Below, piece after piece: positions 12,477 to 36,770 of a DNA stretch of 64,000 bases. Made by a program: the position numbers and the translations under genes. The notes under the pieces were generated by a model, which was not told where the DNA came from, ran no database searches, and worked only from the letters and a program-made list of their open reading frames with translations. The stretch comes from a bacterium (GTDB lineage: Bacteria; Orphanbacterota; Orphanbacteria; Orphanbacterales; Orphanbacteraceae): NCBI GenBank assembly GCA_025782575.1, contig JALGYY010000017.1, positions 175,892 through 239,891 of the forward strand. Reading direction: 5' to 3'. Numbering within the stretch: the stretch's first letter is position 1; every line of letters begins with the position of its first letter.

Positions 12477-13655
12477 TCAATAGAGAAAATGTCCCTGTAC
12501 TACAGTCTGAGTGTAGTCCGTCCGGCTCAGCGCCGGATCGATAATCGACCCATCCGGTTCGTCGATCACATACGTCTGGACGAGCAGGCTGAGCACGGCG
12601 AATGGATTGAGAAACAGATTAATCCCTGCACCCCACCGCGCTTCCGTGCCGGATTGAAGATCGAGATCAGGGTCGTGAAAACTGAAAGTTCCCACAAGAT
12701 CGAGTCCCTGCCGAACCTGGAAAGCCGCTTCGTGTGATGTAATGAACGTGGTGATCTCCTCGTCGCTTTCCGGAAGATTCCATCTGGTCCAATCCGCCTC
12801 TCCGAGCCAGGTGAATCGGTCCCAATGAAACGCGCCGAACGGTCCCCCCGTATTGCGTTCCCTCACCTCGTCCGACGGGAGAGACCGGTCATCATCCGAC
12901 TGATAGGAGCCGCCGAGAGTGACGCCCGTCCCCTTCAGGTGAAACCGCCAGGCACCTCTGGCAGCGAAAGAGAGTTCATCATTGAAATCCTGCGTCGCGC
13001 CCTGGTTCCCGTTCAGGAGCGAGAGATGCAATTCGGTATTCCCTGGATAGAGGCCGACCTCCACACCGACATCGGTATGGGCGGGGGGCTCGAAGCCGAG
13101 TACTTCACGGGTAAACGCGTTGTGATCGGCTAGCTTCCAGCCGAATGCGGGAGTGAAACGACCGACTTTGACGTAGCCGTTATGGGGGAGTACCTGGGCC
13201 ATCCCGAAGGCCTCATAGGTCGTGCTTGAACCCCGATCGAGATAGGCGGACCAGTGATCGTCCCCCTGGAAGGAGAGATAGAAATCGCTTTGCATATGAA
13301 AGAACCCGTTCTCCGATCGCAATGCGTCCTCGTCGGAGTAGCGTGCAATGGTCCGAAGATCGGCGCCGATCGTGATCCGATCGGCAATATGGGGATTGAT
13401 CTTTTCGATGTCCCCCATTCCCCAGGGGTTGTAAACCATTTCAGTGGGCACCAGGAACTGGCTTGCGTAGGTCGTTCTCATCCCCCCACCTGTAGGATTC
13501 ACATGACAGAGAGAACACTTCTGCTCGTATCGAGCCGAATAGCGGGGAAGACCGAATGCGGAGGAGACGGAGAACGGCCCCAGGTTCGTTTGGATCGCGC
13601 CGAGCGCCATCATCAGACTGAAAACCCTGACAACAACAGTCCCTTTGATTCTCAT
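12477..13655 (-). CDS. Outer-membrane porin-like barrel with N-terminal haem c motif
   Basis: There are 392 residues. After a long signal region (cleavage probably near residue 34) comes a CxxCH haem c motif, C47-C50-H51 in QKCSLCHVNPTGGGMR. From about residue 85 to the C-terminal Tyr the protein is made of alternating amphipathic strands rich in Trp/Tyr/Phe (for example GYVKVGRFTPAFGWKL, WRFHLKGTGVTLGGSY), ending ...VVQGHFLY, as in outer-membrane barrels. One covalent haem at the periplasmic mouth of a porin is the simplest reading. GGAAGGGGAAG precedes the ATG. It lies between the barrel-SppA gene and yceI in the same operon. Only one haem site is seen, so it is not a multihaem conduit by itself. 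Confidence 0.75.
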   Translation of the reverse strand: MRIKGTVVVRVFSLMMALGAIQTNLGPFSVSSAFGLPRYSARYEQKCSLCHVNPTGGGMRTTYASQFLVPTEMVYNPWGMGDIEKINPHIADRITIGADLRTIARYSDEDALRSENGFFHMQSDFYLSFQGDDHWSAYLDRGSSTTYEAFGMAQVLPHNGYVKVGRFTPAFGWKLADHNAFTREVLGFEPPAHTDVGVEVGLYPGNTELHLSLLNGNQGATQDFNDELSFAARGAWRFHLKGTGVTLGGSYQSDDDRSLPSDEVRERNTGGPFGAFHWDRFTWLGEADWTRWNLPESDEEITTFITSHEAAFQVRQGLDLVGTFSFHDPDLDLQSGTEARWGAGINLFLNPFAVLSLLVQTYVIDEPDGSIIDPALSRTDYTQTVVQGHFLY

Positions 13656-13691: not shown

Positions 13692-16271
13692 CTATTCCGT
13701 TATGTACCAACCCTCAGGAATCGCCTCGGGGGGAGTGAGCGTTTTGGGCGCTCCCGGAGTTTTCAGCAACTCTTCAATATACGTAATAGCATAGTCAGAA
13801 TTCGGGTCGTCCGTTATGACGTTCGGAGTCATCGGAAAGAGTCCGGCCAATCCACGGCCGATCATGCCCGCCCCGAGAAGGCGGCGGCCGACGGACGGGA
13901 ACTCGAATGCTTTACGCTTCGGGAATTCGGTCAGTATGATCTCGTCCTCCGGATTGATGCCCGCGAGGATACGAGCTTCCAGAATGGCGTCCGGCAGAGT
14001 TCCGAAGCCGTCCACCAGGCCGAGATCAAGGGCATCGCCCCCCATCCAGACCCTTCCCTGGGCGATTTCGCCAACCTCATCCGCTTCCATCCCTCTACTC
14101 TCTGCAACGGCGCCCACAAAATCCTCATACAGATTCAAAATGATCTTTTTGGTGTAGGCAAGTTCATCCTCTGAGAGCGCCCTCTCCGGAATCCGGCCGA
14201 GAAGGGGATACCGCACTCCGGTAAGGAGATCGCTATGCGATCCACGCTTGACGCCGCTCGCCGTGAAACCGGTCTTCTCCCCCAGGCCGTCATCCCAGGC
14301 CCAGCCGCCGATGACTCCGATCGAACCTGTCACGGTAAGCGGGCTCGTCAGGATCCGTGTCCCCGGCATGCTGATCCAGTAGCCTCCTGAAGCGGCCACG
14401 CTCCCCTGGCTTACGATCACCGGACGGCCTTTCTCTTTGTTTCTGGTCATGCCGTCGGCGACCAGGTCACTGGGCAGAGGATCCCCTCCCGGCGAGTCAG
14501 CCCGTAAAACGATCGCCGCTACGTCGTCATCATCCGCGAGATCACGCAGGTACTTGGAAGTCGCCCGGCCACGGATTCCCTCTTCCATCGCACAGATCCC
14601 GAGTGCATAGACAAGCGCGATTTCCGGTGGCCTTCCCCATTTTTCATCATAATGAATCGCGCGATTCGGATCGCGCCAATGCCTGCCCAGACTTGCGCCG
14701 TCACGCTCCTCCCGGATCCAGTCTTCCATGTCGTGCCATCTGCCGATCCGATCGACCAGATCCCGGTCGAGTGCCTCTTCAGCAATGAGGAGAGGGGTCT
14801 CTTCAACCATCCGGTCAAAGCTCGCGTTATTGAAGCCCCGCCCATCGGTGATCTGTTCACGAAAGACCTCATAGATCACATCCACGATTCGACCGATCTG
14901 CTCTCTGTCGGCGTCCGACATGTCGGTACGGCTGAGGGTCTCACTGGCGGTCTTGTACTTGAAGTGGCGGAGTTCCTGAAAACCGATGCCGATCTTTTCC
15001 AGAAGGCCTTTCATATAGGTTCTGTGCAGCGCGAGCCCGGGAATCAGCACCTGTCCGTGGGGATCGATCGAGATGTGATCAGCGACGGAAGCAAGCCCGT
15101 ATCCCCCCATGGTAACCCGCTCGATATGGATGATCACTTCCTTGCCTGCGAGTTTCAGTTCACCGAGCTTCTCGCGGAGTTCCCAGACCAGAGTGCCGCC
15201 CGCCCGAAAACCGGCCAGGTTCAGGACAACGCCGCGGACCGCCGGGTCGATTCGAATCTCCTCGAGATCCCGTGCAAGATCGATCCACGCGACACGCTCA
15301 TCGTCGAACCAGCGGGCCTTCCGATAGGTCAGCCTGCGATCGGAGAGATCCATTTTGACGTAGTGATTCTCATGGAAGAGTTTCCGCATGGTGTGGTGGA
15401 GAGGGAAACCCCTGTGGGGAGGCTCCAGTCTGACGAGATAGGTTGTCGGGAGCAGCCCGCCTGCCGGACGGTTCTTCCCGTCCTCGTCATAGGAAGGCAT
15501 GACGTGAATCCCAAAATCGTCGAAAGTCACGCCTAGATTCAGACTGTAGCCGAACTCATCGCTCCCCGTGGCGTCACGAAACTTCATACCCAAATGGATT
15601 CCATGGATCGGGCGGACTTCGAAGCCGGCGCCCCATCGTCCTTCATCGATCTGCTCATCGTCGGAGAGGGTGTAGTCGCCGAAGAATGTCAGCCACGGTT
15701 TCCCGAGGGGCCGAACACCGATATCGGCGCCCCCCTGTCTTGCATCGGTTTCGAGAGAGAAAACGCCGGCCGCCCCGTAGGATAGCCATGAGCGGGGCCG
15801 TTCGATCATACCCGCCACGATCGACCTCTCGTGGTCGATGACTTCGTTTCCACCGCGGGCCCACCGATAGGCCAGTCCGAAATGGCTCCGCCTGTTCCCG
15901 CCTGAAAGCCCGATCTGATAGTCGTAAAGACTTTCCGTATCACCTGCGATATCGCCGGGACCGATCGACCGCTGCATGGCGAAACCCAGATTTCGCCCCG
16001 AAGAAAAACCGTAGTTGTCGAGCGACCCGCTCCGGAGGCTGCGATCGTTCCACCAGAACGCGGTTTCTCCATGATCGCTCGTCGACCAGGCGGCCGGGTT
16101 GCTGAACGCGCCGGCCGCCCCTCCCGTCACGCTTGGTGTCTGGGGAAGGAACGCCGTTCCCGTCTGGTAATCGATCAGTCGTTCTTTGTCCTGATTCGCC
16201 CCTCCCGCAGTAGCAGTCAATCCCAGCACCGTGAAGGCGATGAATGCAACAAATCGCGCGGTACTTGTCAT
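13692..16271 (-). CDS. Outer-membrane barrel fused to SppA-type signal peptide peptidase
   Basis: The protein has 859 residues from the ATG with GGAGGAG upstream; a longer open frame lacks coding character. A signal peptide (1-23) is followed by residues about 30-285 that resemble a PorV/FadL-like barrel: the GGAAGAFSNPAAW motif, then short aromatic beta strands such as HFGLAYRWARGG and WGAGFEVRPIHGIHLGMKF. Residues about 300-530 and 545-770 are the two halves of a 67-kDa-type SppA. The catalytic lysine is K440 in HFKYKTASE (as K209 of E. coli) and the serine is S628 in SVAASGGYW (as S409), so both residues of the Ser-Lys dyad are present. E. coli SppA is an inner-membrane enzyme; this one looks outer-membrane attached and facing the periplasm. 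The exact substrate is unknown. Confidence 0.8.
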   Translation of the reverse strand: MTSTARFVAFIAFTVLGLTATAGGANQDKERLIDYQTGTAFLPQTPSVTGGAAGAFSNPAAWSTSDHGETAFWWNDRSLRSGSLDNYGFSSGRNLGFAMQRSIGPGDIAGDTESLYDYQIGLSGGNRRSHFGLAYRWARGGNEVIDHERSIVAGMIERPRSWLSYGAAGVFSLETDARQGGADIGVRPLGKPWLTFFGDYTLSDDEQIDEGRWGAGFEVRPIHGIHLGMKFRDATGSDEFGYSLNLGVTFDDFGIHVMPSYDEDGKNRPAGGLLPTTYLVRLEPPHRGFPLHHTMRKLFHENHYVKMDLSDRRLTYRKARWFDDERVAWIDLARDLEEIRIDPAVRGVVLNLAGFRAGGTLVWELREKLGELKLAGKEVIIHIERVTMGGYGLASVADHISIDPHGQVLIPGLALHRTYMKGLLEKIGIGFQELRHFKYKTASETLSRTDMSDADREQIGRIVDVIYEVFREQITDGRGFNNASFDRMVEETPLLIAEEALDRDLVDRIGRWHDMEDWIREERDGASLGRHWRDPNRAIHYDEKWGRPPEIALVYALGICAMEEGIRGRATSKYLRDLADDDDVAAIVLRADSPGGDPLPSDLVADGMTRNKEKGRPVIVSQGSVAASGGYWISMPGTRILTSPLTVTGSIGVIGGWAWDDGLGEKTGFTASGVKRGSHSDLLTGVRYPLLGRIPERALSEDELAYTKKIILNLYEDFVGAVAESRGMEADEVGEIAQGRVWMGGDALDLGLVDGFGTLPDAILEARILAGINPEDEIILTEFPKRKAFEFPSVGRRLLGAGMIGRGLAGLFPMTPNVITDDPNSDYAITYIEELLKTPGAPKTLTPPEAIPEGWYITE

Positions 16272-16306
16272 GGCGAACTCCTCCTCTATTCCGTCCCTGG
16301 TAGCGC

Positions 16307-34359: not shown

Positions 34360-35895
34360 CTAAAAGTTTCCTTTAACTATTACTCGAATAATGTCTTTGT
34401 TATCCGCGCCGCCGGCGAGATCGCCGTCGTTCACCGGGTTAGCGTCGTCTCCGATCCACCAGGGACCGTACGACAGAAAGATGTCCATATTATCCCGCGG
34501 CCGGTACTGGATTTCAGAGAACAGCCCCTTCCGCAATCTCGCAGGATCGTTCCCGAACACATAGCGGTTGTATACCTTGAGCACCTGGGGAATAATGTTG
34601 ATCGAGGTTTCCAGAGATGCGAGTTCCTTTCTTCTCTTTGTGTCCAGATCCTTGATCTTCCCCTGAACCCGCATCCAGGCGAGGCGGCTCTCCACCTGCA
34701 CTTCTGCGAAGAAATCGAAGTTCTTCGTCTCCTCATCGAACAGCTCGTTCGAGAAATCAACTGTCAATTGGCGATCGTACCAGAACTTGCTCGTAAAACC
34801 GTTCACATACTCGGTGTAGATCTCGGTACGGAACCGTGTGTATTTCTTCTGCTCGAATACGCTTCGCCGGTTCTCTTCCCAGTCGAGCGTCACGGTGACG
34901 GCTCTTCCCGGAACGAGATACCAGGTGTTGATCTTGTATCCGACCAGGTCGTTGGTCCCCTCGCCAAGGAACGAAGCGTAGTCCTCTCCAAAGTAGTAAT
35001 AAGATGGGGCGATGTTGTAGAACCCGACTTTGGGACTGCCGAACCGGATGGAACGAAACTCCGCTTTGAACGCGGCGTCCCGCGGTAGAATGCGGTGGAA
35101 TTCGTCGATCTCATAGTCACCGAACTCCCATGTACCATCCGGTTTTCTGTTCTCCCCCGCTCCCTCGACCCTGCTGTCGGCGAACTCGACAAAGAGATCC
35201 GTGTTTCGAACCGTAAACCGGAAATCAACCGCATACACCTGGTTGAAACCCTGCTCACCGTCCTGGGCTTCAAGCTTCCTGGTATAAGTCATTCCAGCCC
35301 GCATGGCGTTGTCTAAGAAGTTACGGCGTAGCCGAAAGACGTGCGCATCATCGGAGGGGGGTGGTGTCGTTACGCTGCCCCCCACTTTCGACTGGCTCGA
35401 GAAGTCACTCACGATGTAGGTGGCGTCCAGTCCTTTCCAGCGGCGAATATCGACACGGGCACCCTGCGCGTTCCCGCCGTCAGTAGTCCCACCCCCCTGC
35501 ACCGGCTGGAGGAGATGGTTGTCGACCCAGAAGCGGTCTTCCCGAGAAAAGAGATAGGCGTCGAACTCGGAATCACCGAAATTCCGCCTGAATCGAAGGT
35601 GAGCTTCACGGTATTGATAGACAGGGCGCTCTTCGTTGTTCGAACCTGTGTTCCAATCCGCCTCCAGGCGAACGTACGCCTCGACCCCCTCGCGGGGAGA
35701 GCTGAATATCCGAAACTGACTCGCCGCCCAGGTATCGTCATGGTTGGATTCGAAATCCCACGGAAAGGCGCGATCCTGTTTCCGGATGTCGAGTTGGAGC
35801 TGATATTCCCCTTCCACCTTGGTAACAGCATTTACGTCGACAACAGCGGCGCCAAGCCCCACCAGGATAATCGAGAGAATCCGTCCTGGTTTCAT
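34360..35895 (-). CDS. Outer-membrane beta-barrel protein, unknown ligand
   Basis: This 511-residue protein has a signal peptide (cleavage near VNA, residue 23). The body is rich in alternating aromatic strands (YQLQLDIRKQD, AYVRLEADWNTG, AHLRFRRNFGDSEFDAYLFSRED) and ends in VIVKGNF, a C-terminal Phe signature. It contains no plug or binding domain and no CBM48. It overlaps the PorV-like gene by 4 bases (ATGA) and precedes the CBM48-porin by 11 bases. It may be a sugar porin or a structural partner of the next barrel. Confidence 0.78.
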   Translation of the reverse strand: MKPGRILSIILVGLGAAVVDVNAVTKVEGEYQLQLDIRKQDRAFPWDFESNHDDTWAASQFRIFSSPREGVEAYVRLEADWNTGSNNEERPVYQYREAHLRFRRNFGDSEFDAYLFSREDRFWVDNHLLQPVQGGGTTDGGNAQGARVDIRRWKGLDATYIVSDFSSQSKVGGSVTTPPPSDDAHVFRLRRNFLDNAMRAGMTYTRKLEAQDGEQGFNQVYAVDFRFTVRNTDLFVEFADSRVEGAGENRKPDGTWEFGDYEIDEFHRILPRDAAFKAEFRSIRFGSPKVGFYNIAPSYYYFGEDYASFLGEGTNDLVGYKINTWYLVPGRAVTVTLDWEENRRSVFEQKKYTRFRTEIYTEYVNGFTSKFWYDRQLTVDFSNELFDEETKNFDFFAEVQVESRLAWMRVQGKIKDLDTKRRKELASLETSINIIPQVLKVYNRYVFGNDPARLRKGLFSEIQYRPRDNMDIFLSYGPWWIGDDANPVNDGDLAGGADNKDIIRVIVKGNF

Positions 35896-36770
35896 TCACT
35901 CCCTCCGAACGGCACGGTGAGCGAAGCCATGTAGGAGATGCCGAGAGTCTTGTGAGTCGAGAACCCCGTGTCGAGGAACCAGCCCTGGCCCAGAAGACCG
36001 AAGCCCCCCCAGAACTCGGCGTCGAACACCCCGCTTCGAAGCGCGAACACTTCAAAGAAGCTGATTTCACCGCCAAGGGAGAGGGCGATTTCATCGATAT
36101 CATTGTGAACCAATCCCGCTGTTACGATCGAATTCTGGTGCCACTGGTAAGCGAGCGAGCCTTCCCACTCCGCCTCCACAACCGTGCCGCCATTTCCAGG
36201 AACGAAGTCGAATTCGGGTTCCACGATGTTACGTACGATTGTGCCGATCGAGAGCTTGGGGGTGGGACGATACAACAGCCCCGCATCGGCGGTGATTTCG
36301 GTCTGCGCCCCATAGTCGCCCGTCCCGATATCATCGAGCCGGGAGAAGTCACTATACGAAACCCGGAGCGCTTTCAGTGTCACGCCGAGTGCCACCGATC
36401 CGAGTGCGGGAAGCCGTCTTTCTTTTGAAACAGAGAGTGAGAAAACATCTTCGGATTGCACGCCGGAAAGACCGAGATGATGCCAGGCCATACCCACATG
36501 GACGATCTTGTTCGGCCAGGTGAGCGCAACATAGTTGGCGGACAGGTCGGGAACGACAAAGGGGCGCGAGTGATTCAGTAGAACGGCCGGGCGATCCTGC
36601 AGTGCGAGGCCGGCCGGGTTCCAGTAAACCGCTGAGGGGTCGTCTGCAATGGCGTGAAATGCCTGGCCCATGGCGAGCGCCCGGCCACCCACTTCGAGCC
36701 GCTCATAATAGGCGCCTGCGGGAGCGGCCAACATGAGTAACACTAACAGTGCTGCCCCGCGAATCATCAT
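35892..36770 (-). CDS. PorV/UPF0164-like outer-membrane protein
   Basis: The 292-residue protein has a signal peptide (MMIRGAALLVLLMLAAPAGA) and the hallmark 'GGRALAMGQAFHAIADDPSAVYWNPAGLAL' of the PorV/PorQ branch of FadL-like barrels. The rest is a barrel of about 14 strands. PorV proteins help deliver or attach Type IX cargo at the cell surface. Here the preceding gene encodes a protein with the FlgD-like sorting region, and the two genes overlap by 4 bases, which fits a dedicated cargo-carrier pair. That pairing is inferred. Confidence 0.85.
   Translation of the reverse strand: MMIRGAALLVLLMLAAPAGAYYERLEVGGRALAMGQAFHAIADDPSAVYWNPAGLALQDRPAVLLNHSRPFVVPDLSANYVALTWPNKIVHVGMAWHHLGLSGVQSEDVFSLSVSKERRLPALGSVALGVTLKALRVSYSDFSRLDDIGTGDYGAQTEITADAGLLYRPTPKLSIGTIVRNIVEPEFDFVPGNGGTVVEAEWEGSLAYQWHQNSIVTAGLVHNDIDEIALSLGGEISFFEVFALRSGVFDAEFWGGFGLLGQGWFLDTGFSTHKTLGISYMASLTVPFGGSE

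Follow-up and report, generated by a model that had tools for sequence, protein, structure and literature searches.

SppA enzymes are usually regarded as inner membrane proteins that clear signal peptides. What, then, should we make of a gene that appears to put an SppA peptidase behind an outer membrane barrel? The gene lies in a 64,000-nucleotide stretch of an Orphanbacterota genome (assembly GCA_025782575.1, contig JALGYY010000017.1), referred to here as the window. A sequence-only reading had described such a fusion at 13692-16271; these coordinates are correct, and we add the strand, minus, which that reading did not give. Read directly, the gene is a single uninterrupted frame of 859 amino acids, starting with an ATG at 16271 and running to 13692, and its full length is kept in relatives. 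It comprises a signal peptide, a FadL/PorV-type barrel, and a two-domain SppA peptidase, and all of the features given below for it are on the minus strand. A likely ribosome-binding site, GAGGAGGAG, lies upstream of the start codon at 16278-16286. The first 25 or so residues (16197-16271) are predicted to be a signal peptide, and no part of the barrel half is strongly hydrophobic apart from residues 5-23. Based on the sequence comparisons described below, we consider the gene product likely to be an outer membrane-anchored SppA-type peptidase, with the barrel substituting for the inner membrane anchor.

The assignment of the C-terminal part to SppA is based on several models and on alignment to a solved structure. 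Pfam Peptidase_S49 matches the 859-amino-acid protein in two stretches (E 2.6e-56), and TIGR00705 (SppA_67K) spans residues 327-770 with an E value of 1.5e-71, scoring 241.5 bits, below its curated cut-off of 311.45; the TIGR00706 domain model, at 188.5 bits, exceeds its own cut-off of 155.45. A phmmer comparison with Escherichia coli SppA (3bez) gives E 2.3e-47 over residues 329-772, and aligns K440 (in YKSAVEP) and S628 (in AASGGYW) with the Lys and Ser of that enzyme. Thus, both the tandem S49 domains and the Ser-Lys dyad of the 67K-type SppA are present: an N-terminal domain at residues 300-540 (14652-15374), with the catalytic Lys codon at 14952-14954, and a C-terminal domain at residues 541-775 (13947-14651), with the nucleophile Ser codon at 14388-14390. 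K440 and S628 are invariant in all 95 aligned homologous fusions. The S49 matches and the 3bez alignment bear out the earlier description of a two-domain SppA with both catalytic residues.

The best-known enzyme of this type is E. coli SppA, or protease IV (67K type, MEROPS S49; PDB 3BEZ and 3BF0), which has the same arrangement as the fusion, i.e., tandem S49 domains with the Lys in the N-terminal and the Ser in the C-terminal domain. It is a tetramer with an N-terminal transmembrane anchor and periplasmic active sites, and it is for the E. coli enzyme only that tetrameric assembly and signal-peptide hydrolysis are established (PMC9360617). One difference lies in what precedes the peptidase. 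E. coli SppA has an N-terminal transmembrane segment in the inner membrane (PMC9360617), whereas the fusion has a signal peptide and an outer membrane-type barrel of ∼260 residues in that position; the N-terminal inner membrane anchor typical of 67K-type SppA was not found, and the barrel part is without helices. The fusion also differs from E. coli SppA in a hydrophobic insertion of 12 residues in the C-terminal domain, at about residues 683-694 (14190-14225). Insertions like it, hydrophobic and mostly 12 to 13 residues long, occur in 52 of the 95 fusions, while the other 43 lack them.

The barrel half is less readily recognized. The barrel part of the window protein has no significant match to any Pfam or NCBIfam model, so automatic annotation would overlook it. 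Other members of the fused set match TraF_2, FadL/Toluene_X, OMP_b-brl, and PorV_fam weakly; PF03349 is matched, again weakly, by 3 of 94 barrel members, and four fusions match PorV_fam directly (best E 1.9e-5). Profile comparison is more telling. When a 94-row profile of the barrel was aligned by hhalign with a PorV-like family, built around a stand-alone protein at window positions 35892-36770, the match had a probability of 99.2% and an E value of 1.4e-19 over 207 columns, while controls using the SppA domains or column-shuffled profiles gave 0.26 or worse. A reversed barrel profile reached E 2.9e-6 with the barrel itself and 0.0065 with PorV, indicating that repeated strands inflate hhalign scores, but by much less than the observed match would require. 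In addition, the HMM of the PorV-like family matches fusions down to E 2.3e-22. A search of the PDB with a 19-row barrel profile gave no match, and the 94-row profile gave a lone weak one, to the outer membrane transporter BtuB1 (E 0.032), with none of the solved FadL-type chains among its matches. Altogether, the profile evidence supports homology between the barrel part and PorV-like proteins.

The pattern of residues within this half also points to a barrel. Averaged over the family, hydrophobicity shows a residue-by-residue alternation at 11 places from residue 66 to residue 260. In the same analysis, the SppA part favors helical periodicity and is without strand alternation. We propose 14 strands within residues 66-284 (15420-16076); the positions of strands 2, 13, and 14 were judged by eye, and the alternation and turn spacing are compatible with this count. 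The connections between strands alternate strictly between short (mean 12.3, standard deviation 0.86) and long (mean 17.8, standard deviation 3.05), which resembles the periplasmic turns and outer loops of a barrel. No helical transmembrane segment was found in the barrel part of any of 101 fusions, while 32 of 39 unfused SppA proteins have such a segment before the peptidase. Taken together, these features suggest a barrel, probably of 14 strands. Ahead of it is a hatch-like segment of about residues 26-65 (16077-16196), containing the motif N58-P59(-A60) at 16100-16095. N58 and P59 are invariant in the 95 fusions and A60 is found in 90 of them; R158, R187, and G132 are kept in 89 to 93. In FadL, NPA is the conserved hatch motif, required for substrate-induced opening (PMC8407342). 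The profile match, the strand and turn pattern, and the lack of helices all favor the PorV/FadL-type barrel that had been proposed from the sequence.

Three sets of known proteins can be compared with this half of the fusion. The PorV/PorQ, UPF0164, and TraF_2 barrels share the Asn-Pro-Ala motif and are homologous along about 207 columns, but they are stand-alone proteins of about 290 to 400 amino acids without an enzyme domain. The FadL/TodX transporters and BamG likewise have the NPA motif, the 14 strands proposed for the fusion, and periplasmic termini as predicted for the fusion, but no peptidase. Treponema pallidum TP0548, TP0859, and TP0865 are modeled as a FadL-type barrel with a C-terminal periplasmic domain; in these, a helical TPR-like bundle has been added, where the fusion has an enzyme (PMC8407342). 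Stand-alone relatives of the fused barrel also occur in the genome under study. The protein at 35892-36770 (minus strand) is a PorV/PorQ-like barrel of 292 amino acids and a distant relative, matching TraF_2 above the cut-off (E 7.6e-9) and both PorV_fam (E 2.7e-13) and FadL below it. Another, L049 (G000:C13:481135-481917), is without a peptidase domain and, by eye, without Asn-Pro; similar stand-alone copies are found in G003, G004, G005, and G006.

How widespread is the fusion, and how old? A whole-genome search recovered it at full length, with 52 to 58% identity, from each of the six other family members searched, and all seven genomes surveyed from the phylum have it. Among 386 bacterial genomes searched with barrel profile A2, about 65 are clear carriers, having a clear barrel match inside a frame of SppA-fusion size; six weaker cases bring the count to 71, and the carriers in this survey span roughly 45 families. 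A scan of named genomes with the single window protein found no relative, and carriers emerged when alignment A3 was the query. These include Krumholzibacteriota, Eisenbacteria, KSB1, Calditrichota, Zixibacteria, and Ignavibacteria, as well as Balneolales, Rhodothermota, Salinivenus, Gemmatimonadota, and Myxococcales, with one named isolate, the gammaproteobacterium Natronospirillum operosum. Eisenbacteria are among the groups in which a search had been suggested. Wherever both parts were read in these named records, an SppA domain directly follows the barrel. The fusion is old, and it is widespread among bacterial groups that have received little study; at the level of sequence it is intact and conserved. 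No description of an SppA joined to a barrel came up in our search of the open-access literature.

The two halves appear to have a common history. Distances between barrels correlate with distances between SppA parts (r = 0.77, a value reached by 0 of 500 permutations), and the corresponding figure for the two SppA domains, 0.84, is close to this; the barrel and SppA halves have thus traveled together. Within the phylum, the mean identity of the barrel is 0.56, versus 0.52 and 0.64 for the enzyme. In an SppA tree of 140 rows, built by a quick method, 54 fusions, the window protein among them, form a clade with good support; the remaining fusions are spread below it, and six state changes suffice for the fusion. 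A single old origin followed by losses is plausible. On an RpoB tree, in which row G126 was probably read in the wrong frame and from which trimming removed seven genomes, the pattern requires at least 23 gains or losses, which means that many lineages manage without the fusion.

Carriers of the fusion generally have other SppA-type genes. The genome studied here also encodes an ordinary SppA of 620 amino acids with an N-terminal transmembrane anchor, at residues 24-59 of its open frame, and 58 of 65 carriers have at least one further S49 gene, which may in some cases be a short SppA, an SohB form, or a second fusion. In most carriers, the fusion thus supplements the ordinary enzyme and does not substitute for it. 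It had been argued that a tie to the outer membrane implies a different substrate. That both location and substrate differ from those of inner membrane SppA is a reasonable inference, strengthened by the ordinary transmembrane-anchored SppA alongside and by the further S49 genes of other carriers, but neither of the substrates then suggested, cleaved sorting sequences and misassembled outer membrane proteins, is supported, as discussed below.

The surrounding genes give no pointer to a substrate: across 110 loci from different phyla, no conserved partner gene was found beside the fusion. Within the phylum, its neighbor is a cluster of glycogen/starch genes, to which no functional link is evident, and in the window it lies between this cluster and an alpha-amylase gene. 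The alpha-amylase-type protein (17396-20476, plus strand, 1,026 amino acids), encoded two genes away from the fusion, ends in a tail of the type IX secretion system (T9SS) sorting type at about 20213-20464 (G000:C2:196104-196355). The next gene downstream of the fusion (12477-13655, minus strand) encodes a porin-like protein of 392 amino acids with no Pfam match. It has a CSLCH motif near its N-terminus, perhaps a cytochrome c-like heme site on a barrel.

We propose that the fusion represents a swap of anchors. A signal peptide would export the protein, and residues ∼66-284 would insert into the outer membrane as a barrel of the FadL/PorV type, probably with 14 strands. With an even number of strands, both ends of the barrel, and the peptidase with them, would be in the periplasm. 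The two-domain S49 peptidase (K440/S628) at the C-terminus would be held close to the outer membrane on its periplasmic side, tethered by a barrel instead of the N-terminal transmembrane helix that tethers ordinary SppA in the inner membrane. It is predicted to be active there, and may oligomerize as E. coli SppA does. Its role would be to break down short, partly hydrophobic peptides that gather at the outer membrane or elsewhere in the periplasm. Such clearance at the outer membrane, as a second site besides the inner membrane SppA of the same cell, is what we consider the most likely function, a proposal made less firmly than that of the anchor itself.

It is tempting to connect a PorV-like barrel to type IX secretion, in that it could dock near the T9SS while the peptidase clears by-products such as cleaved sorting sequences. 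PorV is after all a relative of the fused barrel, and the genome under study has an SprA homolog (C21:307573-308742) and about 148 hits to Por-type sorting tails. SprA is also found in 62 of 71 fusion carriers, versus 40 of 315 other genomes. However, of 10 supported independent pairs on the RpoB tree, a mere 0.7 or so show a difference in SprA, and there is no SprA hit in nine of the 71 carriers (G034, G111, G133, G156, G181, G245, G263, G267, and G369), while those 40 genomes have SprA without the fusion. With so few informative pairs and nine carriers without an SprA hit, the raw co-occurrence is not evidence of function. Furthermore, cleavage of T9SS tails takes place at the cell surface, while the peptidase would be periplasmic. 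The sorting-sequence substrate put forward by the sequence-only reading is thus not upheld, as the association of the fusion with SprA is not separable from shared ancestry, and we consider a role in type IX secretion improbable. As an observation apart, the type IX secretion repertoire of this little-known phylum is apparently large (G000). The barrel could instead be more than an anchor, with FadL-type gating that passes hydrophobic or peptide molecules across the outer membrane to the peptidase beneath, whether to import and digest them or as a sink for peptides dissolved in that membrane. The invariant Asn-Pro is consistent with this, NPA being essential to FadL hatch opening, as are the conservation of the barrel, which matches that of the enzyme within the phylum, and the proposal that the T. 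pallidum FadL-like proteins with periplasmic C-terminal domains hand on cargo (PMC8407342). However, PorV-like relatives also have the motif, which may be structural, and no transport partner or conserved neighbor was found; a gating role is possible, but we think it unlikely. It is rather doubtful that a gated FadL-type barrel and SppA form one machine, in which peptides are admitted or collected at the outer membrane and digested as they emerge. To our knowledge, there is no self-contained device for import and digestion, or for membrane cleaning, among outer membrane proteins.

Another idea, which extends the misassembled outer membrane proteins of the first description, is quality control of outer membrane protein assembly, in which the peptidase would degrade misassembled barrels near the BAM machinery. 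SppA-type enzymes are known for acting on short peptides rather than folded barrels, and we found no direct link between the fusion and BAM, so we give this little credence, even though some findings would suit it. BamG, a FadL-type barrel of 14 strands, belongs to the core of the BAM complex in Bacteroidota and in most of the FCB group (PMC12611786), which means that FadL-type barrels do serve as docking parts there, and deletion of the ordinary sppA of Flavobacterium columnare raised vesicle output 3.8-fold (PMC13236525). Finally, the N-terminal part might not be a barrel at all, or the gene might be a chimera produced by a frameshift or an assembly error. The failure of curated barrel families to match the window protein alone would agree with this, but a one-frame fusion recurs in dozens of independent, unrelated genomes, and the profile match, the strand and turn pattern, and the absence of helices from all 101 fusions argue for a membrane barrel over a soluble domain. 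We therefore regard a non-barrel or an artifactual join as highly improbable, and the barrel-SppA gene as real.

In all, the comparisons support viewing the fusion as a known type of SppA peptidase in which an outer membrane-type barrel replaces the usual anchor. If this is true, genes annotated as plain SppA on the basis of their S49 domains would include a class with a different location, and many diderm bacteria would keep a second, separately placed peptide-clearing enzyme.
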